Below are positions 2,014 through 63,396 of a stretch of DNA of 64,000 nt, in pieces. A model generated the notes under the pieces. The model made no database searches. It worked only from the letters and a program-made list of their open reading frames with translations, and was not told the origin of the DNA. Source of the DNA: Verrucomicrobiota bacterium (GTDB taxonomy: Bacteria > Verrucomicrobiota > Verrucomicrobiia > Limisphaerales > UBA1096); the NCBI GenBank assembly GCA_014382705.1, contig JACNJE010000090.1:17428-81427 (forward strand), in the 5' to 3' direction. Numbering within the stretch: position 1 is the stretch's first letter; each line of letters starts with the position of its first letter. A program made the translations under genes and the position numbers.

Positions 2014-2783
2014 GCGCTCGGCTTGGCCAAGCCATCCTTCCAGCCGCGAATCATGCCAACCATGCGTTCCCGGAGCAACTCATCCGGCTGAATGTGTCTG
2101 GGGATAAAGTCCGGCGAGGTGCCGAGCAGGTCGGTGGTCACCAAGATTTGTCCGTCGCAGCGTTTGCCGGAACCGATCCCAATGGTCGGAATGTCAACCA
2201 AGCGCGTAATCTCACCGGCGACGGCCGGTGTCACAAGCTCGAGCACGACGCCGAACGCGCCGGCTTGGCCAAGCGCTTGGGCATCGGCAAGCAGCGCCTC
2301 CCGCTGCGCCTCGTCGCGGCCCTTGACCCGGTAACCGCCCTCCTCGAGCACGTGCTGCGGCAGCATGCCCAAGTGGCCAAGAAACGGAATGCCGGCGGCG
2401 CGGATCGCCTCGACCTGCGGAAGGATCGCCCGGCCGCCCTCGGCCTTGACCGCCTCGGCACCGGCGTCGGCCAAGCGCTTGGCCGACTCGACGGCTTGCT
2501 CCGGCGTCTCGTAAGTCTCAAACGGAAGGTCGGCGACGACAAGGCCGCGTGGCTTGGCCCGGGCGACGGCGCGGATGTGGTGCTCCATCTCCTCGAGCGT
2601 GACATGCGTGGTGTCCGGGTAGCCGAGAACGACCATCCCGAGCGAGTCGCCGACAAGCAGCAACGGCACCCCAGCAGCGTCGAGCAACTTGGCCATGGGG
2701 AAGTCGTACGCGGTCAGCGCCGCGATCGGCTCGTGGCCCTTGCGTTGTCGAATCGTTTGCGGCGTCTCCCGTGTCTCGCTCAA
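2010..2783 (-). CDS. panB: 3-methyl-2-oxobutanoate hydroxymethyltransferase PanB
   Basis: First committed step of pantothenate and CoA synthesis: it adds a hydroxymethyl group from 5,10-methylene-THF to alpha-ketoisovalerate to give ketopantoate. The deduced protein is 257 aa, normal for the family. Seen are ALTAYDFPMAKLLDAAGV, the metal-binding LLVGDSLGMVVLGY, an EGG motif in the middle, and GAFGVVLELV with the catalytic Glu. The open frame continues upstream to about 3590, but that part is antisense to the prepilin gene. I chose the TTG at 2783 (giving SETRETPQ), which has GGGGAG about 11 nt upstream; an ATG is lacking. An exact palindrome copy (2273-2284) lies inside and encodes ALGQA; another at 2021-2032 encodes GLAKP near the C terminus. 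Confidence 0.93.
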   Translation of the reverse strand: MSETRETPQTIRQRKGHEPIAALTAYDFPMAKLLDAAGVPLLLVGDSLGMVVLGYPDTTHVTLEEMEHHIRAVARAKPRGLVVADLPFETYETPEQAVESAKRLADAGAEAVKAEGGRAILPQVEAIRAAGIPFLGHLGMLPQHVLEEGGYRVKGRDEAQREALLADAQALGQAGAFGVVLELVTPAVAGEITRLVDIPTIGIGSGKRCDGQILVTTDLLGTSPDFIPRHIQPDELLRERMVGMIRGWKDGLAKPSA

Positions 2784-2830
2784 GCGGCAAGGTTCTCCCC
2801 GGTTCGCCGCGCGCTCAAGCGCAAACTCGG

Positions 2831-3562
2831 TTACCCGCCGCGCTTCGGATCGAGCCACGGCGTGCCGGACCAGTACCACTTGAACGACGGCAGCGACTCG
2901 GCGTGGCCGTCGGTGAAGCTGACATTGCTCTTGGTGTTGTGGCGCAGGTGCGGGCCGCCCCAGTTCGGGTCGCCGGAGGTGACGCAGCCGCCACAGGGCG
3001 CGCTGTTGCCGGGATCGTGAACAATCCAGCAGCCGGCTTTTTCCGGCGACTGCGGGGTGACGCATTTCTTCGGGTTGGTGGTGTTGACCGGCCGGCTGCC
3101 GCCGTCGGTCTTGTAAACGAGCGTGGCGGGGCTGCGGACGGCGCTTTCCTTGAGCGGGGCATATTCCCAGACACCGGGCCAGTTGCAGCCGCCGAGCCGA
3201 AAGTTTGCGGCATAGTTGTTCGTGGTTCGGCCAAAGTCGTAAATCGTCTCCTTGGTCTTGAACGGCTTGCTGGGGCAACGAAGGGTCTTTTTGGTTTCCT
3301 GATACGGCAGCAGATAATTGAACCACGACGTGCGGTTTTGCTGGCTGCCCACCAGCGTGAAGGTCCAGGCGAAGCGGTCGCCGTTGTCGCCGGTGTACAT
3401 TTTCGAGGCGAGCGTCAACTGCTTGATGTTGTTGAGGCAGTAGATTTCCTGCCCCTTGGCCTTGGCCTTGGCCAAGGCTGGCAACAGCAGGGCGGCCAGG
3501 ATGGCAATGATCGCGATGACCACCAGCAGCTCGATCAGCGTGAATGCGCGGTGGCGTTTCAT
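2831..3562 (-). CDS. Prepilin-like protein with N-methylation site and H-X9-DG motif
   Basis: Pseudopilin-like secreted protein, 243 aa. It begins with a short basic leader (MKRHRA) followed by [20 protein letters not shown], a class III/type IV prepilin cleavage-methylation site. The C-terminal region contains [12 protein letters not shown], which is the H-X9-DG motif of the prepilin families greatly expanded in Verrucomicrobia, Planctomycetes and Lentisphaerae. The likely route is cleavage by a prepilin peptidase and assembly by a type II secretion-like machine; the role of these numerous paralogues is unknown. I used the ATG at 3562 because the leader must be N-terminal. Repeated Ala-Lys after the helix (ALAKAKAKG) comes from a CTTGGCCAAG palindrome near 3471. 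Confidence 0.9.
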
Positions 3563-3563
3563 G

Positions 3564-3575
3564 GCTTGGCCAAGC
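3564..3575. repeat. Palindrome GCTTGGCCAAGC, intergenic copy
   Basis: Exact 12-mer in the 14-bp gap between the HsdR-N-like gene stop (3577) and the prepilin-like gene start (3562). It fills nearly the whole gap. Confidence 0.95.
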
Positions 3576-3576
3576 G

Positions 3577-4590
3577 TTACGGCTTGGCACCCCAGTTGAG
3601 CAGGCGGCCCCTGCGGCTGGGCTTGTCCGGGGCGTTTTCGCTGCGCTGCAGCACGTTTTTGATGTCCACCTTTTTGGAGATGTGAAGCAAGGTCCGTTCC
3701 TTGGCCGCCCCGCTGAATTTTGACGAGGCCGCCTTGCTGCGCGCGGTCCCGCGCTTGGCCTTCCATTTGCCCGGCGCGGTCTTTGTATTGCCCGGTGCCT
3801 TGCGGCCGGAGAATTGGTTGGGATCGGCGGCCCGGCGCCGGGCTTCGAGGGCGTCCTGCTTGAGCTTGCGCAGAAACTCCAGCACGGCGGCGGTCTCGCG
3901 GCTGGCGGCGACGTCCGGGCGCAACACGCCGTTGGCCAGATTTTCGCGGACCTCGAGCGGCGTGATATCGAGATCGGGATTGAGCTTGCGTAACTCGCGC
4001 CGCACGGCGGACACGACCGGGTCGCTCAACATCATCGCGCCGAGGTAGTGGCGGTTGGTCACCTCCAGCCGGAGGCGGAAGTGATCCAGCCCCGCGCTCC
4101 GGTGCCCCTCGCGCGTCAGCAGGAACAGCGTCTCGAGGTGCGCGTCGCGGCTGGGCTGCATATGCGACAGGTCAAATGCCAGGACGACCGGTGTCTCCGG
4201 CCGGGTGTTGCCGGTGTCCTCGACATGATGCACCTGCCAGCCGATGCCGTTGGTCAGGACGATCCACTCGACGCCGTTGAGCAGCGCGTGCTGCGAGGTC
4301 GCCAGCAGGTAGCGGTCGTCTGGCGCGGCACCGACCGGGCTGACGCGCACCAGCATGGCGGCCGAGCCGCCGGAATGAATCGCGAAATCGTAAACCGCCT
4401 CGCGGTTGTCCAGCTCCGACGTCACCTCCGTGTAGCGGTCGAACCCGAACAGGTCCGACAACAGGTCGAGCGCCAGTGTGGCGGTGTCCGCGCGGCTGGC
4501 GTCGCGCTCCCGCGCCGCCTTGAGCAGCGGCTTAAACCGGCGCAACCCGGCGCGGAGACGTTCCCGGACTTTTTTCGTGATCTTGGCCAT
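3577..4590 (-). CDS. HsdR N-terminal-like protein with degenerate nuclease site
   Basis: A 337-aa protein whose first 125 or so residues resemble the N-terminal PD-(D/E)XK domain of type I restriction R subunits. It has a helical start, [12 protein letters not shown], then YDFAI with an acidic D68, and ends in the typical [16 protein letters not shown] block at about 108-123. The strand that normally carries E-x-K reads MLVRVSP (79-85), so the catalytic Glu and Lys appear lost. The remainder holds a predicted helical region (to about 250) and a basic Lys/Ala/Gly-rich tail. No helicase, methylase or specificity subunit is adjacent, so this is a stand-alone protein, not a working restriction system. 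It may bind DNA; the function is unknown. The ATG at 4590 sits in TTGGCCAT, half of the window palindrome. Confidence 0.6.
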
Positions 4591-4688
4591 TTGACCGGAC
4601 GGACGGGTGATTCAAAGCAAGCCACCTGCCAAAAGCAAGCCGACAATGCACTTGAAATGGCCCCGTTTGTCGCCCCTAATCGCCGCGC

Positions 4689-5762
4689 ATGAACAAGCGC
4701 TCACTCCAATTTCTACAGACGTTGGTCAACACTCCCAGCCCTTCCGGCCATGAATCTCGCGGCTTGCGCGTCTGGATGGACTACGTCAGCCAGTACGCCG
4801 ACGAGACCTATTCCGACGCCTACGGCAACTGTGTCGCCGTGCTCAACAAGGGCGGCGGCCCGAGGCTGATGCTCGCCGGTCACGCCGACGAGATCGGCAT
4901 GACGGTCAACTTCATCGACGCCGACGGCTACGTTTACGTGCGGCGACTCGGCGGCACCAACCCGGCGATCACCCGGGCACAGCGCGTCATCGTTCATTCC
5001 CGCAAAGGCCCGGTGACGGGCGTCGTCGGCAGTGTCGCGCCGCACCTCATGCGCACCGACACCGGCGCGCCGAAGGCGCCAAAAATTCACGAGGTGTTCA
5101 TCGACATCGGCGCCCGTTCCCGCAAGGCCGCTGAGAAACTCGTCCGCGTCGGAGACCCGATTACGCTCAATGACCAGTTCGAGATTCTGCGCGACGACCT
5201 CGTCGTGGCGCGGGCGTTCGACAACCGCGTCGGCACGTGGGCCGTGGCCGAGACACTGCGCCTGCTCAAGACCGGCAAAGCCAAGCTCAACGCCGAGGTG
5301 TGCGCCGTCGCCAACACGATGGAGGAGGTCGGCCTGTTCGGTGCGCGGCAGATCGCCTACTCGCTGCACCCCGACGTCGCGCTGGTGATGGACGTCACCC
5401 ACGCAACCGACTACCCGACCGTGGACAAGCGGCAGCACGGCGATATCAAGGTGGGGCAGGGGCCGACCGTCACCCACGGAAACTGCAACCACCCCGAAGT
5501 CATCAAGCGCGTCGAGCAAGTGGCCAAGCGGCTGAAGATCAAGTTGCAACACGAGGCGATCTCCGCGACGAGTGGCACCGACACCGACGCCGTGTTCTGG
5601 ACGCGCGGCGGCATCCCGAGCGGCCTCATCAGCCTGCCCAACCGCTATATGCACTCGCCGGTGGAAGTCGTCAGCTTGGCCGACCTCGAGCAGATCCCGC
5701 AGCTCATGGCTGGCTTCGCCAAGTCGCTGAAAAAAGGCGAGCAATTCAAAGTAAAGATTTAG
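4689..5762 (+). CDS. M42-family metallo-aminopeptidase
   Basis: Cytoplasmic zinc or cobalt aminopeptidase of MEROPS family M42 (glutamyl aminopeptidase/endoglucanase-M type, TET-like particles), 357 aa. Seen are NTPSPSGHE at the N terminus, LMLAGHADEIGM with the first metal-binding His, ARAFDNRVG with the bridging Asp, NTMEEVGLFGAR with the catalytic Glu pair, VMDVTHATDYP with a metal-binding Asp, and the C-terminal NRYMHSPVEVV His ligand. All ligands expected of an active enzyme are present. It likely trims peptides left by the proteasome or other proteases. The ATG at 4689 starts the family-conserved N terminus. It is transcribed alone, divergent from the HsdR-N-like gene across about 100 bp. 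Confidence 0.93.
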   Translation: MNKRSLQFLQTLVNTPSPSGHESRGLRVWMDYVSQYADETYSDAYGNCVAVLNKGGGPRLMLAGHADEIGMTVNFIDADGYVYVRRLGGTNPAITRAQRVIVHSRKGPVTGVVGSVAPHLMRTDTGAPKAPKIHEVFIDIGARSRKAAEKLVRVGDPITLNDQFEILRDDLVVARAFDNRVGTWAVAETLRLLKTGKAKLNAEVCAVANTMEEVGLFGARQIAYSLHPDVALVMDVTHATDYPTVDKRQHGDIKVGQGPTVTHGNCNHPEVIKRVEQVAKRLKIKLQHEAISATSGTDTDAVFWTRGGIPSGLISLPNRYMHSPVEVVSLADLEQIPQLMAGFAKSLKKGEQFKVKI

Positions 5763-33250: not shown

Positions 33251-34882
33251 GTGCCGGGAGTGGTAGCCATCGTCGGTCGGCCCAATGTCGGGAAGTCGGC
33301 CCTGTTCAATTGTATTGCGCGCAGGCGCGTTGCGATCGTGCATGACCGTCCCGGCGTCACGCGCGACCGGCTCAGTGCCGAGGTCGAGTGGCTGGGGCAC
33401 CCGTTCACGCTGGTGGACACGGGCGGCATCGGCTTGCTCAAGGGCGAGCGGGGCGGGGACGACTTTGCGCGGGAGATCGTCACCCAGGTCGAGGTCGCGC
33501 TCGAGGACGTGGACGTGATTTTACTCGTCGTCAGCGTGCAGGAGGGTGTCGCACCGATGGATTTCGAGGTGGCGGCCATGCTCCGCGAGGCCGGCAAGCC
33601 GGTGTTCGTGATGGTCAACAAGGTGGACACCGCCGCGCACGAGCCGGGCGTCGACGAGTTCGCCGAGCTGGGCTTCGAGCGGCTGTTCCCGGTCAGCGCG
33701 CTGCACGCGCGGGGCATCGACCTGCCGCTTGGCCAGGCGGTCGGCCTGTTGCCAGAGCGCTTGGCCAAGCCGGAGGAGCCGGCCGATGCCGAGCCGCCGC
33801 TCAACATCGCCATCGTCGGCCGCCCGAATGTCGGCAAGTCGTCGATCATCAACGCCCTCACTCGTTCGGAGCGGGTCATCGTCAGCGAGATTTCCGGCAC
33901 CACGCGCGACGCCATCGACGTGCCGTTCGAGGTCGAGACCGACGGCGTCCGGCAGCGCTACAACCTCATCGACACCGCCGGCATCCGCAAGCGGCGGCGT
34001 ATCAAGGATGCGGTGGAGTTTTTCAGCGTCAACCGTTCCGACAAGGCCATCGAGCGGTGCGACCTCGCCGTGCTGGTGATGGACGCCGCCGAGGGCGTCA
34101 CCGAGCAGGACAAAAAAATCTGCGACCGCATCACCGAGACCGGCTGCGCCTGCGTCATCGTCGTCAACAAGTGGGATCTGTTCCGGGCCGGACTGGAGAA
34201 GGCCCGAAAGCAGGAGGCCAAAAAGAGCGCCGCGCAGGGCGGCCGAAAGGTCAGCCGCAAGAAACAGGAACAGCTCATGTACGACGAGTTCGGCAAATGG
34301 GTGAAGTCGAACCTGTTTTTCATCGACTATGCGCCGGTGATTTTCACGTCCGCGATCGAGGGGTTCCAGCTCGACCGCCTGCTTGAGGCGATCCGCTACG
34401 TCAGTTCGCAGCTCCAGAAAACCACGCCGACGAGCCTGCTCAACCGCACGCTGCAGTCTGCGCTGGAGCGCAACCCCGCGCCCAGCTCAAAGGGCCACCG
34501 GCTCAAGCTCTTTTACGCCACACAGGTTCAGTCGAAGCCGCCGACGTTTCTGCTTTTTGTCAACCGCAAGGAGCTGCTGAGCGACAACTATTCGCGCTAC
34601 CTCATCGGCGTGCTGCGCAAGGCGTTCGGCTTCGAGGGCTGCCATATCCGGCTCGTGGCCAAGCCGCGCCCGAAAAGCATCGAGCCGGTCCGCCGCAAAA
34701 CGACGGTCAAAAGCCGGACGAGCAAAAAAGTCACCAAGCGCGAAATCCAAAAAATCCGCGACGAGACCAAGCGCAAGAAGGATGCGAAGAAAAAAGCCAT
34801 CCGAAAAGGCGCCAAGCCACCCGGAGCCAAGCGCCCCAAAAAACGCCCTGCCAAAAAAGACCGCCCCCGAAAGTCACCCTAA
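33251..34882 (+). CDS. der: Ribosome-assembly GTPase Der (EngA)
   Basis: A double-GTPase needed for 50S ribosome maturation, 543 aa. G domain 1 has GRPNVGKSALFN (G1), DTGGIG (G3) and NKVD (G4). G domain 2 has GRPNVGKSSIINA, DTAGIR and NKWD. A C-terminal KH-like domain follows (to about 470). Two oddities stand out. A Lys/Arg-rich insertion follows the second G4 (QEAKKSAAQGGRKVSRKKQE). The protein also ends in a tail of about 65 residues that is nearly half Lys/Arg with many Pro, absent from typical Der of about 440-490 aa. The start is GTG at 33251; the following PGVVAIVGRPN fits the family N terminus. Confidence 0.95.
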   Translation: MPGVVAIVGRPNVGKSALFNCIARRRVAIVHDRPGVTRDRLSAEVEWLGHPFTLVDTGGIGLLKGERGGDDFAREIVTQVEVALEDVDVILLVVSVQEGVAPMDFEVAAMLREAGKPVFVMVNKVDTAAHEPGVDEFAELGFERLFPVSALHARGIDLPLGQAVGLLPERLAKPEEPADAEPPLNIAIVGRPNVGKSSIINALTRSERVIVSEISGTTRDAIDVPFEVETDGVRQRYNLIDTAGIRKRRRIKDAVEFFSVNRSDKAIERCDLAVLVMDAAEGVTEQDKKICDRITETGCACVIVVNKWDLFRAGLEKARKQEAKKSAAQGGRKVSRKKQEQLMYDEFGKWVKSNLFFIDYAPVIFTSAIEGFQLDRLLEAIRYVSSQLQKTTPTSLLNRTLQSALERNPAPSSKGHRLKLFYATQVQSKPPTFLLFVNRKELLSDNYSRYLIGVLRKAFGFEGCHIRLVAKPRPKSIEPVRRKTTVKSRTSKKVTKREIQKIRDETKRKKDAKKKAIRKGAKPPGAKRPKKRPAKKDRPRKSP

Positions 34883-35052: not shown

Positions 35053-38000
35053 CTACGGCTGGGCCAAGCGGTGGAGTTCGTTGGCGACCTGGCCGATCAC
35101 TTCGGGCCAAGCGCCGGCGGTTTGCTGCCGGAACAGTCTTGTGTTCGGGTACCACGGCGTGTCGCCGCGACCGAGCAGCCAGCGCCAGTCGGCGGCGAAC
35201 GGCAGCAGCACCCACGTCGGTTTGCCCAGCGCGCCGGCCAAGTGCGCCATGGCGGTGTCCACCGTCACGACCAAATCCATCGACCCGATCAACCTCGCGG
35301 TCGAGGCGAAGTCGCTGATGTGCGGCGAAAGGTCGGTGACGCAGTCGGTGGCATCGATGATTCGGCGGGCCTCGTCGCTGGGCTCCAGTTGCAGGTTGAA
35401 CCAAGCGAAATCGCCGCACGCGCCGAGCAACTCAGCAAGCAGCCCGGCCGGCAGCGAGCGGTTGTCGGCCCACGAGCGGCTGCGGCCGGCCCAGACCACG
35501 CCGATTTTTAGCGTGCCGACATCGGGCGCGACTCCCGCCGGTTCTGCGAAAAGGTAGCGGCCGTTTTCGCCGTTGGGCACAGTCTCCGGCGTGGTGCCAA
35601 ACGCCAGCGGCGCGCTCAGCATCGGCAGCGCGAAGTCGGCACTTGGCACCGGTTCGCCCGGTTCGAAAACCTGCGACACGCCGGGGAGCGTTTGCAGGAG
35701 GGCGCTCAATCCCGGCTGGCACTCAATCACGACGCTCGCACCGGCGTTGGCTAAGTGAGGTGCGTAGCGGCAAAACTGCAGCGTGTCGCCAAATCCCTGC
35801 TCGGCGAACAGCAGCAGCGTTTTGCCGGCAAGTGGCTCGCCGTTCCAGCGGGGGATGCCGGGGTGCCTGGGCGCGAAGAGCGAATTGTCGGTCTGCCAAC
35901 GCGCCTCGTAATGTTTCCAACCGTCGTTCCAGCGGCCGGCGGCCAACTCGGCGATCGCGAGGTTGAATGGCCCGTCCGGGTTGCGCGGCTCGGCGGCAAT
36001 GAAATCGTTGAAAGCGGCGATGGCTTCCTCCACGCAGTTTTGCGCCTGCAACGCGACACCGAGGTTGAGCAGCGTATCGGGATGCCCGGGATGATGCCGG
36101 AGCACCGAGCGGCAGGTGGCTTCGGCGGCGGCGGGGTCGTCGCGCTCGAGTTGCAGCTTGGCCATGTTGACGCCGGCCATCGGCTGCCCCGGCTGCCCCT
36201 GCAGGATGTGCCAGAAACATTCCTCGGCGAGCGCGGATTCCCCAAGGTCGCGGAGCGTGAGGCCGAGGTTGACCATGGCGTCGGTGTAGTCGCCGTCGAG
36301 ATCGACGGCCCGCTTGTAGGCTTGGGCGGCGGTGAGGTAGTCGCCCCCGTCCTGCGCGACTTGGCCAAGGTTGAACTGCGCTGCGGCGAGGGCGGGGTTA
36401 AGCCGGGTCGCCCGCCGGTAGTCGCGCCGGGCCTCGGCCGCGTGGCCAAGCGCGTAGTGGGCATTGCCGCGGTTGAAATGAAAGTCGGCGCAGCCGGACT
36501 GCAACCCGATGGCACGGTCGTACGGGCCAAGCGCCTGCTCCGCTTGGCCAAGGCCGGAGAGCAGCAGGCCAAGCTCGTGGTGGTTCTCGGCGTCGTCCGG
36601 CTGCAACTCGATGGCGCGCTCGAGGCTTGTCCGCGCCGGGTCAGCCTGACCGTTTTCGCGGAGCACCCCGGCGAGCAACCGGAGGAGGGTCGTGTTTTCG
36701 GGGTCGGCCTCGGCGGCGAGTTGGTACTGCTCGATCGCTTGGCCAAGCCGGCCCTGCTGCTGGCAGTCGATCGCCTTGGCCAAGAGGCGGGAGGCGGCCG
36801 GGGAGGGCTGTTGCCGCAGCGCGGCAGCCACGTCGGCGATGACGCTGTCCCAGTCTCCGGGCCGGGGTTGGCGGAAAATGCGCATCGTCGGATACCACGG
36901 GCTGTCGCTGCGGTTCTCCAGCCAGCGCCATTCACCGGCATACGGCAGCAGCAGCCAGACTGACCGGCCCAGCGCGCCGGCCAAATGCGCCACGGCGGTG
37001 TCGATGGTGATGACAAGATCGAGTTGTCGCAGCAACAACGCAGTGGCCGCGAAATCGGTCATCCGGGAGTCCAAATTGGTGACATCGCCAAGCTGCGCCG
37101 AGTCGGCGGGATTAGGTTTTTTTTGGAGGCTGTAAAATTGGGCGGTGTTTGATCTGGTCAGCTTGGCCAGCGCAACGATTGGCACTTCGCGCGACTCGGG
37201 CCGGTTCGCCCGCCGTGAGCCGCGCCAGACGATCCCGACCGCCAGTTTATCCTGTTGGCGGCCCGGCAACGGAATGCCCGGGCCGGCCTTGAGCGGATTC
37301 ATGAACTCGTTGCCGGGAATGGAACCGGCGTCACAGCCGAACACGCGCGGGAGACTGAGCAGCGGACATTGCAGGTCGTGGGCCGGGGGGTGTTCACCGC
37401 GGGGGATGACCTTGTCGATCCCGTCGATGCACCGCATCAGCGGGGCCAGCTCGGGCTGGCACTCGAACAGGATGCGCCCGCCCCGTTGTTCGATCATCGG
37501 GAGGAACCGCGCAAACTGGATCGTGTCGCCGAAGCCCTGCTCCGCCCAGACGAGGAGGGTTTGCCCATCGAGCGACCCGCCGTTCCAACAGGGCTTGTCG
37601 AGGCGCGACTGGAGACTGTTGTAATGGGGCATCAGCAGCCGGTTCTCGTAGGCGGCCCAGCCGTTGGCGAAGTCGCCGGTTCGCAACAGCGCCAGTGACA
37701 GGTTGAACGCGATGCCGGGGGAGTCCGGGGCGAGTTGCCGCGCCTGTTCGTGCCGCTTCAGCGCCTCTGCCGGCTGGCCCAGCGCCATCAAGATGTTTCC
37801 GAGATTGGAAAACGATTCCGCGTGGTCCGGGAACTGGCTGACGAGTTTCTCAAAGACCAGTCGGGCTTTCTCGAATCGACCGTCACGCTTGAGTTGCAGT
37901 CCCTCCTCCGACAGAACGGGCAGCGTTTTGTCCGTGGACTCAAGGCGCAGTGCGAACCGCACCGTGTCAATGACACTCCGCCAGTCGCCGGGCGTGGGTT

Positions 38001-39627
38001 GGCGGAAAATGCGCATGGTGGGATACCACGGGCTGTCGTCCCGGCCGTGGAGCCAGCGCCATTCGCCGGCGAACGGCAGCAGCAGCCAGACCGGTTTGCC
38101 GAGCGCCCCCGCCAGGTGCGCCGTGGCGGTGTCAACCGTGATGACGAGATCGAGCTGCTCCATGATCGACGCCGTGGCCGCCAGGTCGGTGCAATGCGCC
38201 GCGGCATCGGTGGCGCTGGCCGCTTGGCCAAGCGTTGCCGCAGCCTCGTCACCGGGATTCAGCTGGAGGCTGACAAAATGGGCGCGGTCGGACTCGAGCA
38301 ATGTCTGGCAGTCGGTCCACTGCATCGAGCGGAAGGCGTCATTTCGGTGCCGGGGATTGCCGGCCCAAGCCAGGCCGATCTTCAATTTCTCCGCCGGCAA
38401 ACCAAGCGGGAGTGGCCACTCCCCGGTTGGGCGCAGATAGGGCACTTGGCTGGGGATGGAATCGAGTGTGATTCCGAATACACGAGGCAAACCCAGCAGG
38501 GGAATCTGGATGTCGTATTCCGGAGGCGCGTCGTTTGGTGTCACCACCTTGGCCAAGCCGGGGATGCTTTCAAACAAGCGACTCGTCTCGGGAGGGCACT
38601 CGAGGATGACAGAGCCCACGTGCCCGGCAACCGACGGGAGGCAGCGGACAAACTGGATGGAATCCCCCAGCCCCTGCTCGCAGTGGATGAGCAAGGTTTG
38701 GCCCGGGGCCGGCTTCCCGTCCCATTCCGGTTTGTCCTGATGTCGCCGCCAGCTTTGCTGTGAGGAGCGCCAGCGCCATTCGTAGTTTTCCCAGCCGTCG
38801 GCGAAATCCCCCTCCAGCAGTTGAAGCATGCCAAGCCCGTAATGGGCGTCCGGCAGCTCGGCATCCAGATCGATCGCCCGGTGGAACCGTTCATGGGCTT
38901 CATCGAGTCGCCGGGCATCGACGAGTGCCCCGGCGAGGTTAGCAAGATAAACCGCATTGCCGGGGGTGGCATCGACCGCTTTGTGGAAACAATCGATTGC
39001 CTTGTCAATCTGCTGGGTGGCCTTGTAAACAGCGCCAAGCGTGTTGTGGGTTTCCGGTTCGTCAGGCTCGAACTGCTTGGCCTTGAGCGCAAACTGCAGT
39101 GCTTCAACATGGCGGTTTTGCCAAAGCAATAGGGAGGAGAGATTGCGATGGGCAGTGGCCAGGGCCGGTTCGTTGGCCACGGCTTGGCGGAAGGAGTGCT
39201 CCGCCTCATCAGGACGACCCATCTGGTGGAGAAGGGTGCCGAGGTTAAGATGCGCCACGGCCAAGGCGGGATCGGCGGCGATGGCGCGGCGGTAGCATTC
39301 TTCCGCTTGGCCAAGCGCATTCGCCTGCTTGTGAAGCAGGCCAAGGTTGACATGAGCCCGGGCGTGGCACGGATCAAGCTGCATAGCCCGCTCGTAATGC
39401 CTCTGTGCAGAGTGGGGATCGCCGGATTCTTCCTCAAACAGGCCAAGCGCAAAGTGCACATCCGGAGCGTCCGGGTTCTGCAAACAGGTCTGTTTTAGGC
39501 ATGTTTCAGCCTCATCCAAACGGCCGTTCTGGATGAGATCAACGGCACGGAGCACGGAGTCTGCTACGGGATCGGGTGATTCGGCAGACTTCAGGTCGGA
39601 CCTGGTTGGACAAATCGCGTTCGCCAA
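35053..39627 (-). CDS. Giant TPR protein with three GT9-like (heptosyltransferase-type) domains
   Basis: About 1524 aa, built of three repeated modules of TPR helices followed by an ADP-heptose:LPS heptosyltransferase-like (GT9) domain. The modules end near residues 570, 945 and 1520. Each GT part opens with an NGW/DGW-x2-YE-x-R block and a TLL-x3-EQG-GD-QF-R block, and closes with HLAGALG-PVWLLLPF-type text followed by EWRWL and SPWYPTMRIFRQ. The TPR arrays differ in length: long in module 1 (about 20-280), short in module 2 (about 575-650), long in module 3 (about 950-1230). Such proteins may glycosylate proteins or build surface glycans; neighbouring glycosyltransferases support a glycan role. 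The start is uncertain: no ATG; TTG at 39627 is chosen because the TTG at 39702 overlaps the divergent GT4 gene. Confidence 0.8.
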   Translation of the reverse strand: MANAICPTRSDLKSAESPDPVADSVLRAVDLIQNGRLDEAETCLKQTCLQNPDAPDVHFALGLFEEESGDPHSAQRHYERAMQLDPCHARAHVNLGLLHKQANALGQAEECYRRAIAADPALAVAHLNLGTLLHQMGRPDEAEHSFRQAVANEPALATAHRNLSSLLLWQNRHVEALQFALKAKQFEPDEPETHNTLGAVYKATQQIDKAIDCFHKAVDATPGNAVYLANLAGALVDARRLDEAHERFHRAIDLDAELPDAHYGLGMLQLLEGDFADGWENYEWRWRSSQQSWRRHQDKPEWDGKPAPGQTLLIHCEQGLGDSIQFVRCLPSVAGHVGSVILECPPETSRLFESIPGLAKVVTPNDAPPEYDIQIPLLGLPRVFGITLDSIPSQVPYLRPTGEWPLPLGLPAEKLKIGLAWAGNPRHRNDAFRSMQWTDCQTLLESDRAHFVSLQLNPGDEAAATLGQAASATDAAAHCTDLAATASIMEQLDLVITVDTATAHLAGALGKPVWLLLPFAGEWRWLHGRDDSPWYPTMRIFRQPTPGDWRSVIDTVRFALRLESTDKTLPVLSEEGLQLKRDGRFEKARLVFEKLVSQFPDHAESFSNLGNILMALGQPAEALKRHEQARQLAPDSPGIAFNLSLALLRTGDFANGWAAYENRLLMPHYNSLQSRLDKPCWNGGSLDGQTLLVWAEQGFGDTIQFARFLPMIEQRGGRILFECQPELAPLMRCIDGIDKVIPRGEHPPAHDLQCPLLSLPRVFGCDAGSIPGNEFMNPLKAGPGIPLPGRQQDKLAVGIVWRGSRRANRPESREVPIVALAKLTRSNTAQFYSLQKKPNPADSAQLGDVTNLDSRMTDFAATALLLRQLDLVITIDTAVAHLAGALGRSVWLLLPYAGEWRWLENRSDSPWYPTMRIFRQPRPGDWDSVIADVAAALRQQPSPAASRLLAKAIDCQQQGRLGQAIEQYQLAAEADPENTTLLRLLAGVLRENGQADPARTSLERAIELQPDDAENHHELGLLLSGLGQAEQALGPYDRAIGLQSGCADFHFNRGNAHYALGHAAEARRDYRRATRLNPALAAAQFNLGQVAQDGGDYLTAAQAYKRAVDLDGDYTDAMVNLGLTLRDLGESALAEECFWHILQGQPGQPMAGVNMAKLQLERDDPAAAEATCRSVLRHHPGHPDTLLNLGVALQAQNCVEEAIAAFNDFIAAEPRNPDGPFNLAIAELAAGRWNDGWKHYEARWQTDNSLFAPRHPGIPRWNGEPLAGKTLLLFAEQGFGDTLQFCRYAPHLANAGASVVIECQPGLSALLQTLPGVSQVFEPGEPVPSADFALPMLSAPLAFGTTPETVPNGENGRYLFAEPAGVAPDVGTLKIGVVWAGRSRSWADNRSLPAGLLAELLGACGDFAWFNLQLEPSDEARRIIDATDCVTDLSPHISDFASTARLIGSMDLVVTVDTAMAHLAGALGKPTWVLLPFAADWRWLLGRGDTPWYPNTRLFRQQTAGAWPEVIGQVANELHRLAQP

Positions 39628-39678
39628 GAGCCGCAGATAAAGCAAAAAACAAGCCAAAAACGATTTAGTTTGGACAAG

Positions 39679-40902
39679 TTGAACGGATACGGAAACAGTC
39701 AAAAGAACAGGGAGAATTGGCTCGGCCTAAACTGGCAGCTCGGGCTGTCGACGGGCTGGGGAATCCTGGGGTTGAACGTTGCTTCAGCCATGGAAACGGA
39801 CCGTCGATTCAGGCCGGTTCCGTTCGCGGAGTTTGGCACAATTCAACCCGGTATAAACGGCTCCGCCCGGTTCATCGCCCAACTGAATCAGCGGAGTGAG
39901 CAGACGCGCCAACACGTCGGAGCCAGGACGTCCGGCGTGTCACCGTGCGGGTTTCCCGTGGTTCACTCGTTGGGCAACAATATTCATTTTGAAGGAATAC
40001 CAAAGCTGAGGGATTTCAACTTCGACGGCTCGATGAACTTTGGCATTTGTGTTTTCGAGTTCGATTTGTCAAACGAGATCACGCTTCAAAACGCAGCCAG
40101 ATTCGAGGTGGTGTTCGCGGGATGTAAATGGAATCAAGCAGTGTTAAAAAAACACGGTGTGCCGAACACAGACCTGTTCCTGCACGGGATCGACCCTTCT
40201 TTATTTTATCCGAGACCCAAAAAAGAACAGCATCGGTTTGTCGTTTTTTCAGGTGGCAAGCTCGAATACCGAAAAGGACAGGACATCGTCGTGGCGGCAT
40301 TCAGGCAGTTTGCCAAGCGACATTCGGACGCCGTCTTGGCGACCGTATGGCAAAATCCATGGGGTGCCTCGGCAAACGGTTTGGGAACCACGGGATACGT
40401 TGATGAGGATATTGATGTTGATGAAAATGGTTGCCAGAAGATTGAGGAATGGGCTGTTCGGAACGGGATTTCGCCTTCGCAAATCGTCGACTTCGGGGAG
40501 ATTCCAAACGCGTTGATGCCGGATATATACAATCAAGCTTCAGTCGCGGTATTTGCCAGTCGATGTGAGGGAGGAACCAACATGATGGCGATGGAAGCCA
40601 TGGCCAGCGGTGTCCCCTGTATCCTTTCAGCCAACACGGGGCATCTGGATCTGATTGATGATGACAATTGCTATCCGCTTCTCAAACAGACATCGCTGAC
40701 GACTCAGGATCTCGAGGGAAGAGGGGAGTGGGGTGAAAGCGACGTCGATGAATTGGTGGAGGCGTTGGAAAGAGTTTACCACGATCACAACGACGCAAAC
40801 ATGCGAGGGGCGAACGGGGCCAGGTTCATGGGGGATTGGACATGGCAAAAAAGAACTCAGCCGTTAATTGAGCGGATACATCAGGCGACTCAGAACCGAT
40901 GA
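39679..40902 (+). CDS. GT4-type glycosyltransferase (first of tandem pair)
   Basis: A retaining GT-B glycosyltransferase, about 407 aa. The C-terminal half has FVVFSGGKLEYRKGQDIVV and the donor-binding block CEGGTNMMAMEAMASGVP, then NTGHLDLIDDDNCYPL. The N-terminal block WLGLNWQLGLSTGWGILGLN is shared with the next gene. I place the start at TTG 39679 so that MNGYGN aligns with MNGAIE of the paralogue; TTG 39670 is also possible. Its stop overlaps the next ATG (ATGA), so both are co-translated. The donor and acceptor sugars are unknown. It has no exact window palindrome and seems less GC-rich than the core genes. Confidence 0.82.
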   Translation: MNGYGNSQKNRENWLGLNWQLGLSTGWGILGLNVASAMETDRRFRPVPFAEFGTIQPGINGSARFIAQLNQRSEQTRQHVGARTSGVSPCGFPVVHSLGNNIHFEGIPKLRDFNFDGSMNFGICVFEFDLSNEITLQNAARFEVVFAGCKWNQAVLKKHGVPNTDLFLHGIDPSLFYPRPKKEQHRFVVFSGGKLEYRKGQDIVVAAFRQFAKRHSDAVLATVWQNPWGASANGLGTTGYVDEDIDVDENGCQKIEEWAVRNGISPSQIVDFGEIPNALMPDIYNQASVAVFASRCEGGTNMMAMEAMASGVPCILSANTGHLDLIDDDNCYPLLKQTSLTTQDLEGRGEWGESDVDELVEALERVYHDHNDANMRGANGARFMGDWTWQKRTQPLIERIHQATQNR

Positions 40903-42092
40903 ACGGCGCGATCGAACGGGATGGCCCGGGTTGGCTGGGGCTAAACTGGCAACTCAGCCTCTCATCAGGTTGGGGGATTGCAGGTGTGAACATGGCCCGT
41001 GTCATCGATATGGATGGCCGGTTCAAGGCAGTCCCATTGCTCCCTTCAGCACAACTGGAGCATTCCAGTGGGGCGTTTGAACCGCTTGTGGCCAAGCTCC
41101 AGCGCAGGGAGCACGAGGTCGCGAAAGCGCTTGGCCAAGCGCAGAAAGGCCGCTTGGTTTGTGACTTTCCGGTGATCCATTCAGTTGGGAACGAGATCCA
41201 CGGGGAGGATATGCCGTACCCCGGCATGCCGGAGCGTGTCGGTTCCCGAAATTTCGCGGTTGTATTCTTTGAGTTCAACTCTCCCAGTGGCTTTACAACG
41301 AACAACGCCAAGAAATTTGATGTCCTATTCGGAGGTTCGACCTGGAACTCGACTGTGTTGAAGCAACACGGCTTGGCCAACGTGGATACTTTTCTGCAGG
41401 GGGTTGATCTGGAAATGTTTCATCCACGCGCAAAAACTCCCCAGGAAAGATTTGTGGTTTTCTCGGGTGGAAAGCTGGAATTCAGAAAGGGGCAGGATAT
41501 TGTTATTGCCGCATTCCGTGAATTTGTAAAAACACACCGTGATGCAGTGTTGGCAACGACTTGGCACAATCCATGGCCAAAAGCGATGAATGGAATCGTT
41601 GAAGCTGGAATGGTGGAGGGTGTTCCCCAAAAGAATTCGGACGGAGAATGGGGGATCACCGAGTGGGCCGGTGATAATGGTGTCCCGGCCGATAACTTTC
41701 ACGACCACGGATTGGTGGCGAATCACCTGATGCCCGAAGTATTTGCACAAGCCGATGTTGCCCTTTTCCCGAACCGTTGTGAAGGCGGCACCAATCTGGT
41801 TGCGATGGAGGCGATGGCCAGCGGTGTCCCCTGTATCCTGTCAGCGAACACCGGTCACATGGATCTGATCAACGATGACAACTGCTACCCCTTGCTCAAG
41901 CAGTCGGAAGTGACGAGTTTTACGAACACGAACGATTGGGGCGAGTCGGACGTAGCCGAAGTCGTTGAGATTCTCGAGCGAATCTATACGGATCGCCAGG
42001 AAGCCAAGCGCCGGGGTAAGCAGGCGGCAATGTTTATGCGAGATTGGTCTTGGGAGAAACGAACAGCATATTTGTTGAACCGGATAATTTAA
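40899..42092 (+). CDS. GT4-type glycosyltransferase (second of tandem pair)
   Basis: A 397-aa paralogue of the preceding gene, colinear along its whole length: WLGLNWQLSLSSGWGIAGVN, FVVFSGGKLEFRKGQDIVIAAF, CEGGTNLVAMEAMASGVPCI and NTGHMDLINDDNCYPL. The two probably add successive or alternative sugars to the same glycan. The start is ATG 40899, overlapping the previous stop. Unlike its partner it carries an exact 16-mer palindrome (41127-41142, encoding ALGQA) and a near copy at about 41371, so it has been in this genome long enough to gain the motif, or gained it by recombination. Confidence 0.86.
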   Translation: MNGAIERDGPGWLGLNWQLSLSSGWGIAGVNMARVIDMDGRFKAVPLLPSAQLEHSSGAFEPLVAKLQRREHEVAKALGQAQKGRLVCDFPVIHSVGNEIHGEDMPYPGMPERVGSRNFAVVFFEFNSPSGFTTNNAKKFDVLFGGSTWNSTVLKQHGLANVDTFLQGVDLEMFHPRAKTPQERFVVFSGGKLEFRKGQDIVIAAFREFVKTHRDAVLATTWHNPWPKAMNGIVEAGMVEGVPQKNSDGEWGITEWAGDNGVPADNFHDHGLVANHLMPEVFAQADVALFPNRCEGGTNLVAMEAMASGVPCILSANTGHMDLINDDNCYPLLKQSEVTSFTNTNDWGESDVAEVVEILERIYTDRQEAKRRGKQAAMFMRDWSWEKRTAYLLNRII

Positions 42093-42187
42093 TTCCATGC
42101 CAGCCCCAAAAGATAGAGTTAATAACCGGTGAACATGAAAACGATGCATAACAGTTCGGTGTCGGTGAAGTTTGGCTTGATGGGTCA

Positions 42188-43321
42188 ATGAAGATAGCGG
42201 TTGCCATCCCGACCTTTAACCGGGTTGAGTATTTGAGAAAGGCGGTTCAGTCCGTGCTGGATCAGGTGCATGACCATGGTGTGGAACTGTACACCGTGAT
42301 CTCCAATATCGCCTCGACGGATGGGACAGGCGACTACCTTGATCAGCTAAACAAAGACCATGAAAATGTGATTGTCTATAATCAGCCGGAGGACAATCGA
42401 AAGTTTCCGAACCCGTACTTTTTGGCCAGTGTGATTCCCGACGATATCGACTGGGTATGGTTGATGGGGGACGATGACTATCTGATGCAGAAGAACACGG
42501 TACAGGATGTGTCGCGGCTAATCCGGAACCATCAGCAGAATGAGTTGTGCCTGATTCACGCTTGCCAAGGTGGCAGATCGCGATCAACGAGACAGGTGAG
42601 GGTCGGGGAGATTTTTGATTTATGCAACGAGTTTGGATATCATGAGATGTTGGGGTGGTTTTCGAGCATCGTGCTTCGCAGAAGTGAATTTGTTGATTCG
42701 ATGAATGAACTCAAGGAAACACATCACTATATGCGTTCAGACACGTTGGAAGGGAGATCAAACTATTCTGCATTTGCCCATTCCGCAGCGATCTACAAAC
42801 AATGTGTGGGCAAGAAGAGTTTGTTTGTCGACTGGCCGCTTGTGGATCCACAGGATCGAAAACAAACCGAAAAAACGGCCAAGCGGTGGGCTGTTGAGAA
42901 CACCCCTGAACGCTACCTGTTTGTGGCGGATGACCTGCAAAGGCTAAAGGATCTGGGATTGATCAAAAATAAATGTTCCAGGCTTTTTTTTAGGTATCTC
43001 ACGGTCAATTTTTGGGATTTGTGGCTTAGTTATTTGATGTCACTGCTGATTGATAAAGAAAAAACAGAAGCAGAATTAACTTCAGAAAAGTTTTTGACCG
43101 AATGGAACATCAATCTTGATAGGATCATGAAAGTCACTGAACTGCTTGATGATCCAAATGATATCAAGCAACTGTCCTATATGCATTTGAACGTAAAATA
43201 TATGGCAGGGTGTCTTTCTAACGGCAAGTTTTTCGACCGAGCCGCTTTGGATGCCATTTCCGAACAGATTCAGACATTGATCGTACCCTCCTATAATTTT
43301 AGTTTTTTTGCATTCGAATGA
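42188..43321 (+). CDS. GT2-type glycosyltransferase (first of tandem pair)
   Basis: A GT-A family 2 glycosyltransferase, 377 aa. AVAIPTFNRVEYLRKAVQSVL opens the fold, NIASTDGT follows, and the metal/nucleotide-binding acidic cluster D95-D96-D97 lies in WLMGDDDYL. The C-terminal 150 residues are helical, aromatic-rich and unlike common GT2 tails. The sequence is clearly more AT-rich than most of the window and has no TTGGCCAA. The next gene is a near-duplicate. This suggests recent acquisition of a surface-glycan cassette. The 95-bp gap to the preceding GT4 gene has no recognised feature. The start is ATG 42188. Confidence 0.86.
   Translation: MKIAVAIPTFNRVEYLRKAVQSVLDQVHDHGVELYTVISNIASTDGTGDYLDQLNKDHENVIVYNQPEDNRKFPNPYFLASVIPDDIDWVWLMGDDDYLMQKNTVQDVSRLIRNHQQNELCLIHACQGGRSRSTRQVRVGEIFDLCNEFGYHEMLGWFSSIVLRRSEFVDSMNELKETHHYMRSDTLEGRSNYSAFAHSAAIYKQCVGKKSLFVDWPLVDPQDRKQTEKTAKRWAVENTPERYLFVADDLQRLKDLGLIKNKCSRLFFRYLTVNFWDLWLSYLMSLLIDKEKTEAELTSEKFLTEWNINLDRIMKVTELLDDPNDIKQLSYMHLNVKYMAGCLSNGKFFDRAALDAISEQIQTLIVPSYNFSFFAFE
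42715..42798 (+). repeat. 84-bp segment identical in both GT2 paralogues (copy 1)
   Basis: These 84 bases match 43856-43939 without a mismatch although flanking parts of the two genes differ. It codes for the middle of the protein (region around SDTLEGRSNYSAFAHSAA). Recent duplication or gene conversion is the likely cause. Confidence 0.92.
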
Positions 43322-43328
43322 ATTATAA

Positions 43329-44537
43329 ATGAAGATAGCGATTGCCATCCCGACCTTTAACCGGGTTGAGTATTTGAAGAACGCGGTTCAGTCAGTACTG
43401 GATCAATCACAAGAGGAAGACATAGATCTTTACATCGTGATCTCCAACATCGCCTCGACGGATGGGACGACTGCTTACCTCGAGCAACTGAACAAAGACC
43501 ATGAAACGGTGATTATTTACAATCAACCGGAGGACAATCGTATTTATCCGAACCCGTACTTTTTGGCCAGTGTAATTCCCGAGGATATCGACTGGGTGTG
43601 GTTGATGGGGGATGATGATTATCTGACTCAAAAAAACTCAGTGCAGATTGTGTCCGAGCACATCAAGAAATACCAGGGGAAAGACTTATGCTTTTTGCAT
43701 GCTTGCCAGGGGCGCAGATCGCGTTCAACGGGACAGGTGAGAGTCGCGGAGATATTCGATTTGTGTAACGAGCTCGGATACCATGAGATGTTGGGATGGT
43801 TTTCGAGCATTGTGCTTCGCAGAAATGAGTTTGTCGCCTCGATGAATACCCTCAGGGAAACACATCACTATATGCGTTCAGACACGTTGGAAGGGAGATC
43901 AAACTATTCTGCATTTGCCCATTCCGCAGCGATCTACAAGCAATGTGTGGGCAAGATGAGTTTGTTTGTCGACTTACCGCTTGCGGAGTCGCAGGACCAG
44001 AAACCAACTGAAGAAACGGCCAAGCGGTGGGCTGTCGAGAACACCTCAGAGCGCTATCTGTTTGTGGCGGATGATCTGCAAAGGCTAAGGGAAATGGGAT
44101 TGATTAAGCATAATTATTCCCGTGCATTCTTTAAGTATCTTAATTGGAATTTCTGGGATATTTGGCTGCTTCATTTGACATCAGAGCTCATTAACAAGAA
44201 AAAGGCAGAACAAAAATTCGGGTTTCATTTTTCGATGAATCCGTTTGATGAAGATAAGACTTCAGCAACATATGACTCAGAAAAGTTTTTGACAGACTGG
44301 AACAAAAAACTTGATAGGATTATGAAGGTAGCTGATTTCATGGAAAATAAAACAGACAGCAAGAATTTGTCTATACTGTATGTATCTCTGAAATATGCCG
44401 TCAACAAACTCGTTCAAAGTAATTTTTCAGATGAGTTTGTCATGTCTATGCTTGCCGATCAGATCAAGATGCTCACGGTTCCATGCCACGATTTTGAGAT
44501 TCTGAACCTCGACAAGGACACTTCTGGGAGCCTGTGA
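43329..44537 (+). CDS. GT2-type glycosyltransferase (second of tandem pair)
   Basis: A 402-aa paralogue of the preceding GT2. The first 260 residues are near-identical in pattern (AIAIPTFNRVEYLKNAVQSVL, WLMGDDDYL, TLEGRSNYSAFAHSAAIYKQC) and the C-terminal region diverges, with an insertion of about 20 residues (QKFGFHFSMNPFDEDKTS). Divergence limited to the tail suggests a change of acceptor or partner, while the donor site is kept. The DNA is AT-rich and palindrome-free like its partner. The start is ATG 43329, 7 bp after the first gene. It ends the glycosyltransferase cluster. Confidence 0.86.
   Translation: MKIAIAIPTFNRVEYLKNAVQSVLDQSQEEDIDLYIVISNIASTDGTTAYLEQLNKDHETVIIYNQPEDNRIYPNPYFLASVIPEDIDWVWLMGDDDYLTQKNSVQIVSEHIKKYQGKDLCFLHACQGRRSRSTGQVRVAEIFDLCNELGYHEMLGWFSSIVLRRNEFVASMNTLRETHHYMRSDTLEGRSNYSAFAHSAAIYKQCVGKMSLFVDLPLAESQDQKPTEETAKRWAVENTSERYLFVADDLQRLREMGLIKHNYSRAFFKYLNWNFWDIWLLHLTSELINKKKAEQKFGFHFSMNPFDEDKTSATYDSEKFLTDWNKKLDRIMKVADFMENKTDSKNLSILYVSLKYAVNKLVQSNFSDEFVMSMLADQIKMLTVPCHDFEILNLDKDTSGSL
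43856..43939 (+). repeat. 84-bp segment identical in both GT2 paralogues (copy 2)
   Basis: Second member of the identical pair described at 42715-42798. Confidence 0.92.
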
Positions 44538-44651
44538 AGCACGGAATAAGGTCGCTGGTTCTTTCGTTGTTTGATTTTTATCATTCCTTCCCCTTGGCCT
44601 TGCCATTTTGCCTGCTGCCGGTGAGCATCCGGCCCGGTTGGTACCGAGGTC

Positions 44652-45545
44652 ATGGCGGCGTTGATTTCCCCTGATTTGCTGAAACGGCTCGAGCAGTTGC
44701 AACTGCTCGCGCGCCGTCGTTCCAAGAGCACCACTCGGGGTGAGCGCCGCAGCGGCGCGCGTGGCCAGTCGGTTGAGTTCGCCGACTACCGCAACTACGT
44801 CCCTGGCGACGACCTGCGCCGGATCGACTGGAACATCTACGGCCGGCTCGACCGCCTCTTCCTCAAACTATACGAGGAGGAGCGCGAGCTTCCTGTCACC
44901 ATTTTTCTCGATGCCAGCGAGTCGATGTCGTTTGGCCAAGCGCCCAAGTTCGATTTCGCTCGCCAAGTTGCCGCCGCCGTCGGCTATGTGGCGTTGTGCG
45001 GGTTCGACCGCGTCACCGTCGAGCCGTTCCCGCTGGGCGACGGCCAAGCGGGCCTCGTTGGTGAACTGCGGCAGGTGCGCGGTCGCAGGTCGTCGTTTCG
45101 TTTTTTTGGAAATCTGGCCAAGCTCAAGGCTGGCGGCACGGCGGACTTCAACCAAGCGTTGCGGCGTGGCGCGATGAAACATCGTACACCCGGCGTGTCG
45201 GTCATCCTCAGCGATTTTCTCGATCCGGCCGGGTACGAGGAAGGACTCAAGTCGCTGGCCCATCGCGGCTCGGAGATTCACGCCGTGCAAATCCTCTCGC
45301 CGGAGGAACTCGAGCCGACGGCGTACGGCGACCTGAAGGTGATCGACTCCGAGACCGGCGTCGAGCAGGAGGTCACTTTCGGCAAATACCGCCTCAAGGC
45401 GTATCAGTCAACGGTGCAAAACTATTGCCAGCGGCTGCAGGAGTTTTGCCGTGCGCGAGGCGTGCGTTACCAATTGGCGCGCTCCGACACGCCGCTCGAC
45501 GATCTGCTGCTCAAGGCCATGCGAACCGGGGGCATGTGGCGATGA
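44652..45545 (+). CDS. DUF58 domain protein
   Basis: A 297-aa DUF58 protein with a VWA-like C-terminal domain. Signature text is RRSGARGQSVEFADYRNYVPGDDLRRIDWNIYGR, summarised here by EFADYRNYVPGDD and RRIDWN, then TIFLDASESMSFG, a MIDAS-like DxSxS variant (D-A-S-E-S). DUF58 proteins normally act with a MoxR AAA+ ATPase and membrane VWA proteins in envelope or enzyme maturation. No MoxR gene is in the window. The ATG is at 44652, and the stop overlaps the next gene start (ATGA). The 114 bp upstream hold no recognised gene. Confidence 0.9.
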   Translation: MAALISPDLLKRLEQLQLLARRRSKSTTRGERRSGARGQSVEFADYRNYVPGDDLRRIDWNIYGRLDRLFLKLYEEERELPVTIFLDASESMSFGQAPKFDFARQVAAAVGYVALCGFDRVTVEPFPLGDGQAGLVGELRQVRGRRSSFRFFGNLAKLKAGGTADFNQALRRGAMKHRTPGVSVILSDFLDPAGYEEGLKSLAHRGSEIHAVQILSPEELEPTAYGDLKVIDSETGVEQEVTFGKYRLKAYQSTVQNYCQRLQEFCRARGVRYQLARSDTPLDDLLLKAMRTGGMWR

Positions 45546-62028: not shown

Positions 62029-63396
62029 ATGCGTGCCGTGCAGCAGCAGCAGACAGTGGCCAAGCCGGCGAGCTTTTCCGGCATCGGGCTGCATAGCGGC
62101 AACAAGGTCGCGATGACCCTGTTGCCCGCGCCGCCGAATTCCGGCATCACCTTTCGCCGCGTGGATCTCGACAGCCACGCGGAGATCCCGGCGCTGGTCG
62201 GGAATGTCGCCGAGACCGACCGCTCGACCACGCTTTCCAAAGGCAACGCCAAGGTGCAAACGGTGGAGCACGTGTTGGCGGCCCTGTACGGGTTTGGGGT
62301 GACCAACGCCGTGGTCGAGCTCGACTCGAGCGAACCGCCCGTGGGGGACGGCAGCGCGCGGCAGTTCTGCAAACTGATCCGCGAGGCCGGCGTCGAGACG
62401 CAGGCAGAACGCATTGAGCCGATCAAAATCGCCGCGCCGATCGAGTACACGCATGACGGCACCGTGATGTCGATCAGCCCGCACGACGGCTTCAAGATCA
62501 CATGCACCAGCTCTGACAAGGGCGGTCGGTTCACCCAGTTTTTCAGCGTCGAGCTGACGTCCGAAACGTGGGAGAGCGAGATCGCCCAAGCGCGAACCTT
62601 TTGTTTTTACGAGGAGATCGAGTACCTCATCAAGAACGGCCTCATCCGTGGCGGCAGCCTCGAGAACGCGATTGTCATCCGCGACGATGCCGTGCTGACG
62701 ACCGAGCCGATGCGCTACCGCGAGGAGTTTGTGCGGCACAAGATTTTGGACATCATTGGCGACTTGAGCCTCGTCGGCGCGCCGTTGCGCGGGCACGTTG
62801 TCGCGGTCAAGCCGGGGCACGCTGCCAACTGCGGCTTGGCCAGGCGCATCCTGCAACAGGCACGCCGCCCGCTGGTGGCCGCGCAAAGTTTTTCCCCGCC
62901 GGGCGACAAGCCGGTGAAGCAACCCACCCAACCCAAGCAATCCCAAGTGAGCGAAGAAGCAACAGCCCCACTCGACGCCGAGCAGATCATGCAGATTCTG
63001 CCGCACCGCTACCCGTTCCTGATGGTGGACCGGGTGACGCAGATCGACGGCAACCAGATCACCGCGGAGAAAAATGTCACGATCAACGAGCCGTATTTCC
63101 AGGGCCACTTCCCCGGCCATCCGATCATGCCGGGTGTACTGCAACTCGAGGCGATGGCGCAGGTGGCCGGCATCCTCACGCTCAAGCAGGCCGACAACGC
63201 CGGCAAAATCGCCTATTTCATGGCCGCCGACAAAGTGAAGTGGCGCAAGCCGGTCAAGCCGGGCGACGTCCTGCAGATCGACATCGAGCTGCTCCGGGCA
63301 CGAGGCAAGGTGGCCAAGGCCAGGGGTGTCTGCACCGTGCGCGGCGACGTGGTCAGCGAAGCCGAGATCACCTTCTCCCTCGCGGGGAAATCATAA
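62029..63396 (+). CDS. lpxC/fabZ: Bifunctional LpxC-FabZ fusion
   Basis: One 455-aa chain joins UDP-3-O-acyl-GlcNAc deacetylase (LpxC, residues 1 to about 288) to 3-hydroxyacyl-ACP dehydratase (FabZ, about 312-455) through a Pro/Lys/Gln-rich linker (about 289-310). LpxC metal ligands are H81 ([11 protein letters not shown]), H237 and D241 ([10 protein letters not shown]), with catalytic H264. FabZ has [11 protein letters not shown], catalytic H360 in [11 protein letters not shown] and E374 in QLEAMAQ. The fusion couples the committed step of lipid A synthesis with fatty-acid elongation and is known in Bacteroidetes and some other phyla. LpxA is encoded at 5986. The ATG is at 62029. Confidence 0.96.

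Follow-up and report, generated by a model that had tools for sequence, protein, structure and literature searches.

FlmG of Caulobacter crescentus binds flagellin through its TPR domain and modifies it in the cytoplasm through its GT domain (PMC7591256). The locus described here encodes a giant protein that resembles FlmG by architecture, with N-terminal TPRs followed by a C-terminal GT-B glycosyltransferase; like FlmG it is predicted to be soluble, it shows a link to flagellin and it comes without a lipid carrier. In contrast to FlmG, which has 596 residues, a single module and uses pseudaminic acid, the giant protein here has three modules and is accompanied by a GT4 enzyme, and the genome shows no convincing NeuB. 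OGT and SPINDLY (GT41) also consist of a TPR superhelix followed by a GT-B domain, and they are the best whole-length structural matches, but the catalytic domain here matches GT9 (PF01075; 3tov). HMW1C-type systems (PMC3012730) glycosylate a secreted protein in the cytoplasm, and a TPR-GT9 relative is found beside a two-partner secretion locus; HMW1C is a GT41 enzyme making N-linked glycans, as opposed to the GT9 domains with long TPR arrays found here. Maf proteins are flagellin-linked too, and their genes cluster with GT4 and TPR-GT9 genes in Rhodospirillales, although Maf is a protein family unrelated to TPR-GT9. Finally, proteins of Azospirillum and Paroceanicella that NCBI names 'Tetratricopeptide repeat-containing glycosyltransferase family protein' carry the same TPR-GT9 module (~35-53% identical over the 144 residues tested); they usually have one module, with no GT4 partner in the stretches viewed. 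Our literature searches turned up no description of such a system from Verrucomicrobiota.

The locus lies within a 64,000-nucleotide stretch of DNA (hereafter the window) from the draft genome of a marine verrucomicrobial bacterium, 4.0 Mb in size and 91% complete (G000). The first-pass annotation had described five glycan-building genes with duplication at three levels. This description is correct: the five ORFs are found at 35053-44537, and the identities between paralogues are far above chance. The features of the locus are the following:

33251..34882, + strand: der (EngA GTPase), the left flank genus-wide, outside the system
35053..39702, - strand: giant TPR-GT9 gene, 1549 aa in three modules, recognised by TPR families, three PF01075 stretches and genus orthologues
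38803..39555, - strand: module 1 TPR array (aa 50-300), from Pfam TPRs; a superhelix in the model
37933..38802, - strand: module 1 GT9 domain (aa 301-590), from Pfam and motifs; OGT/GT9-like in the model of aa 40-600
36799..37722, - strand: module 2 GT9 domain (aa 661-968), from paralogue alignment and module tree; lost in genomes G016 and G020
35938..36798, - strand: module 3 TPR array (aa 969-1255), from Pfam TPRs
35056..35937, - strand: module 3 GT9 domain (aa 1256-1549), from Pfam, motifs and module tree
39670..40902, + strand: GT4a, 410 aa (PF00534, 50.6 bits, cut-off 26.4), in its own clade with the copies of genome G016 and contig L107
40899..42092, + strand: GT4b, 397 aa (PF00534, 47.2 bits, cut-off 26.4), the genus-conserved copy
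42188..43321, + strand: GT2a, 377 aa (PF00535, 42.5 bits, cut-off 23.3), in a variable slot
43329..44537, + strand: GT2b, 402 aa (PF00535, 40.4 bits, cut-off 23.3), in the same variable slot
44652..45545, + strand: DUF58 gene (PF01882), the right flank genus-wide, outside the system

Where the giant gene starts is uncertain, its TTG at 39702 overlapping the start of GT4a (39670) on the opposite strand. The flanks have a GC content of ~64%, which drops to 52-54% for GT4a and GT4b and further to 44-45% for GT2a and GT2b. Models of defence systems gave generic TPR-type matches and nothing else. The window also contains a highly iterated palindrome, TTGGCCAA, with 81 copies against 1.25 expected; GCTTGGCCAAGC, allowing at most one mismatch, occurs 67 times against 0.37 expected. 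Several other genomes of the genus are also rich in this palindrome (8-10 per 10 kb), which in relatives is found at the der end and beside deletion junctions; it resembles HIP1 of Cyanobacteria.

We compared the locus across 21 genomes of the genus, including this one, which are 61-93% complete, so that the absence of any single gene is weak evidence. The conserved unit is the giant gene plus GT4, between der and the DUF58 gene. Orthologues of the giant gene adjoin der and/or GT4 in nine other genomes (G015, G011, G009, G003, G016, G020, G004, G006 and G012; several of these loci are contig fragments), and G018 has kept GT4 and a methyltransferase gene with the giant gene missing. In relatives the giant and GT4 genes are thus together at one locus, and not single and scattered, which is what would have spoken against the five-gene unit proposed by the first-pass annotation. 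That unit stands for the giant and GT4 genes, but the GT2 pair lies outside it. Their shared position within the genus and their fusion in Cyanobacteria (see below) lead us to consider that the giant and GT4 genes belong together.

Altogether, 11 of the 21 genomes keep the giant gene and/or GT4, and the site is empty or scarred in the other 10. Two identical deletion breakpoints are found in G010, G014 and G017, where roughly the first 50 codons of GT4 remain beside der, fused to a methyltransferase remnant; G013 has the first of these breakpoints in common with them. The relic in G007 consists of 78 codons from the end of module 3, that in G002 and G008 of the methyltransferase tail alone, and no island relic was seen at the site in G001, G005 and G019. 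On a tree of Der, DUF58 and BatA, parsimony requires at least four changes of island state, three of which are forced by well-supported branches. One genome sits oddly on this tree: G006 retains the giant gene beside der (G006:C65, L060), yet its core genes nest among those of deletion-scarred genomes, which suggests recombination through the flanks or tree error.

The same comparison bears on how the locus evolves. A tree built from 53 GT9 modules places modules 1, 2 and 3 of the genus in three separate clades, each with 100% support, with modules 1 and 2 as sisters (98/96) and module 3 apart. The two-module giant proteins of G016 and G020 have modules 1 and 3; module 2 is present on both deep branches of the genus and so was most likely lost in these two genomes. 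GT4a and GT4b share 50% identity over 397 aligned residues. GT4b orthologues in the genus are 62-67% identical, and GT4a, present only in this genome, G016 and L107, forms its own clade beside all GT4b genes. As modules and GT4 copies form separate clades across the genus, their duplications must be old and the visible process is loss. Present-day variation consists in the loss of module 2, of GT4a, of the giant gene or of the whole island. The first-pass annotation had read the locus as a system that evolves by stepwise tandem copying. Tandem paralogy does exist at three levels, and the five modules of the cyanobacterial protein L121 cluster together (100/99), so lineage-specific expansion occurs elsewhere in the family. 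With one clade per module and per GT4 copy genus-wide, and changes that are losses leaving scars, we nevertheless regard this proposal as very improbable; it is contradicted for the giant and GT4 genes, and only the GT2 pair looks recent. As a separate observation on the GT4 genes, the conserved glutamates of GT4b (residues 295-304) are spaced E-x8-E, E295 and E304 being invariant in an alignment of nine rows; the usual spacing of the GT4 motif is E-x7-E. A PDB sequence search found no relatives of GT4b.

The giant protein itself matches Glyco_transf_9 (PF01075) at 56.4 bits (cut-off 22) in three stretches. Its three GT9 modules are 43-50% identical in pairs, and every one of them keeps an EQGxGD loop and the motif D-T-A-x-A-H-L-A-G-A-L-G. 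We modelled module 1 (aa 40-600) with an alignment of 13 relatives and obtained a confident model (pLDDT 89.7, pTM 0.86) in which a TPR superhelix leads into a GT-B domain; modules 2 and 3 share the above identity and the main motifs with this modelled module. The top Foldseek matches were SPINDLY and human OGT. Alignment of the model to OGT with VIA-align gave a Z score of ~22-23, to which the TPRs contribute much, and residues 291-556 aligned to the GT9 structure 3tov with a Z score of 19.0 over 248 residues. PF13844 (Glyco_transf_41) was not among the best 25 of the 28 families matching the giant protein, and the catalytic domain matches GT9. As modelled, then, module 1 resembles OGT in architecture with a catalytic domain that matches GT9.

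Presence of the island largely follows presence of flagellin genes in the genus. Flagellin matches were found in all 11 genomes with the giant gene and/or GT4 and in 2 of the 10 without (Fisher p = 2.2e-4); for FlhA the counts are 6/11 and 0/10 (p = 0.012). G018 is among the flagellin-positive genomes although it lacks the giant gene. TPR-GT9 genes of any kind (E <= 1e-40) are confined to those 11 of the 21 genomes. Phylogeny leaves three independent pairs, two or three of them concordant and none discordant, and with only two or three independent contrasts a sign test cannot reach significance. There is no flagellin gene in or beside the island itself. A single-module TPR-GT9 paralogue in this genome (contig C91) has a flagellin gene 170 bp downstream, and in G018, G012, G016 and G006 a TPR-GT9 match lies within ~0.25 kb of a flagellin match. 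Flagellin matches were also seen in two genomes that hold only relics of the island, with no working copy and no FlhA match (G007:C223:258-671 and G017:C417:3545-3949); they may be residual genes or contamination.

We propose, with a probability of roughly 0.6, that the products of the giant and GT4 genes O-glycosylate protein in the cytoplasm, in the manner of FlmG and OGT, and that flagellin is their most likely substrate. Decoration of flagellin is the most likely function because the island is usually missing where flagellin genes are missing and because its relatives often lie beside flagellin. Protein glycosylation had already been suggested in the first-pass annotation, and it is now backed by the resemblance of the model to OGT, by the flagellin genes near relatives and by the co-absence with flagellin genes. 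In such a system the giant protein would use its TPR superhelices to bind a protein that has not yet been exported, much as FlmG does with flagellin through its TPR domain, and its GT9 domains would attach the first sugar or the first few. Lengthening of the glycan would fall to GT4a and GT4b, and its modification or completion to an exchangeable downstream tailoring enzyme, which in most relatives is a methyltransferase and here is the GT2 pair; the modified protein would be exported afterwards. Since glycosylation would take place before export, a lipid carrier, a flippase and a polymerase would be unnecessary. We infer here the catalytic activity, flagellin as substrate, the order of sugar addition and the donor. 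As to the donor, a nonulosonic acid was considered and is unsupported: the NeuB search of this 91%-complete genome gave no convincing match, only a partial one of 20.8 bits (22.8 with neighbours; cut-off 22.1), and the only full NeuB match in the genus is in G020. A heptose-kinase-like gene of this genome scores 341.7 bits against a cut-off of 345, and similar genes are present in flagellin-negative members as well.

An improbable alternative is that the island genes build a surface polysaccharide or a part of the LPS and decorate no protein. Enzymes of the GT9, GT4 and GT2 families often occur in pathways for LPS and exopolysaccharides, NCBIfam gave weak matches to EPS enzymes, and LpxC (62029-63396) is encoded ~17 kb from the island. 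This reading sits poorly with long TPR arrays joined to GT9 domains and with the OGT-like model of module 1. It sits poorly, too, with the lack of any flippase, polymerase or nucleotide-sugar gene in the island or the neighbouring genes scanned, an absence that the first-pass annotation had noted and that we confirm, and with the absence of the island from many flagellin-lacking relatives whose der and DUF58 genes stay intact.

The downstream slot has a different history from the conserved unit. GT2a and GT2b are 68% identical over 377 residues, and no match to the pair was found in the other 20 genomes of the genus or in the other 386 genomes sampled from the phylum. A third copy exists in the same genome (G000:C103:11008-12141; L062 11011-12231), 68% identical to GT2b, on a contig with no flagellar genes in view. 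The iterated palindrome is absent from positions 41381-44931, where ~4.5 copies would be expected from 81 per 64 kb. GT2b had no relatives in a PDB sequence search, no match in phages and only weak partial matches in plasmids. AT-rich, palindrome-free and absent from the sampled relatives, the GT2 pair looks newly acquired and lies outside the conserved unit in a variable slot. In G018, G020, G004 and G009 the slot between GT4 and the DUF58 gene is occupied by a Methyltransf_24 gene of ~200 aa, and in G003 the start of such a gene is seen; this methyltransferase has no match in the present genome, whose slot holds the GT2 pair. In L107, the region downstream of the GT4 pair (2417-4695) encodes a cytidylyltransferase-PEP mutase (Pfam) and a second protein that appears LicD-like by eye and has no Pfam match. 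A phosphonate or phosphocholine-type decoration in place of the GT2 pair is possible there. The GT4b of L107 shows 87-88% identity; the true host of L107 is uncertain, since it is a 5.2-kb contig of 42% GC in a MAG labelled Rhodospirillales. Taken together, the slot probably holds exchangeable tailoring enzymes.

Beyond the genus, we surveyed named genomes with a GT4-alignment scan and searched their flanks with profiles. Among named records, the nearest are for the most part Verrucomicrobiota MAGs, several of them marine. In filamentous Cyanobacteria, GT4 usually forms the C-terminus of a giant multi-GT9 protein of up to nine modules; those of Microcoleus, Tychonema, Okeania and Trichodesmium have ~3,100-3,300 aa, typically with five GT9 modules and a C-terminal GT4, and a Gemmatimonadete also has this GT4 fused to a multi-GT9 protein. 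The scan gave about 40 cyanobacterial loci besides L121 (1196-11173), and L138 has the nine GT9 modules. Leaving out the genus, L107 and Cyanobacteria, flagellin or Maf is encoded within 10 kb at 8 of 27 loci (in Rhodospirillales, a Gemmatimonadete and other Verrucomicrobiota), and at L115 the genes for TPR-GT9, flagellin and GT4 lie side by side in that order. Cyanobacteria have no flagella. Since they carry the fused form, the family must have other substrates besides flagellin.

Plasmids carry TPR-GT9 genes in several settings: one beside flagellar hook genes, one adjoining a two-partner secretion system, one adjoining a large calcium-binding protein and type I secretion genes and one, in Synechocystis, divergent from a giant choice-of-anchor protein gene. 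In all three kinds of setting, cyanobacterial, flagellin- or Maf-linked and plasmid-borne, a protein could be decorated before it is exported. The secretion and anchor settings, together with the fused GT9-GT4 form of Cyanobacteria, favour a second alternative, in which the island serves to glycosylate secreted surface proteins other than flagellin, large adhesins for example, and the link to flagella is indirect, motile and surface-attached traits being lost together. We hold this to be rather unlikely: no adhesin gene was found beside the island in the neighbouring genes scanned, flagellin or Maf is a recurrent neighbour in three phyla, and the paralogue in this genome abuts flagellin.

If the giant and GT4 genes do glycosylate flagellin, it is conceivable, though doubtful, that they work as an assembly line, in which three GT9 sites, each paired with a separate TPR reader, would act in a fixed order on one bound flagellin before extension by GT4, the number of modules setting the length of the glycan or the number of sites. 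Were this true, the cyanobacterial fusions of five GT9 modules and GT4 would be its single-chain version. The FlmG logic would here take the form of a GT9 protein with several modules, served by a dedicated GT4 enzyme and traced through Verrucomicrobiota, Rhodospirillales, Gemmatimonadota and Cyanobacteria, and many uncharacterised 'tetratricopeptide repeat protein' genes of the TPR-GT9 type would gain a testable function. The natural series of module numbers (1, 2, 3, 5 and up to 9) could furthermore reveal whether modules count sites or sugars.
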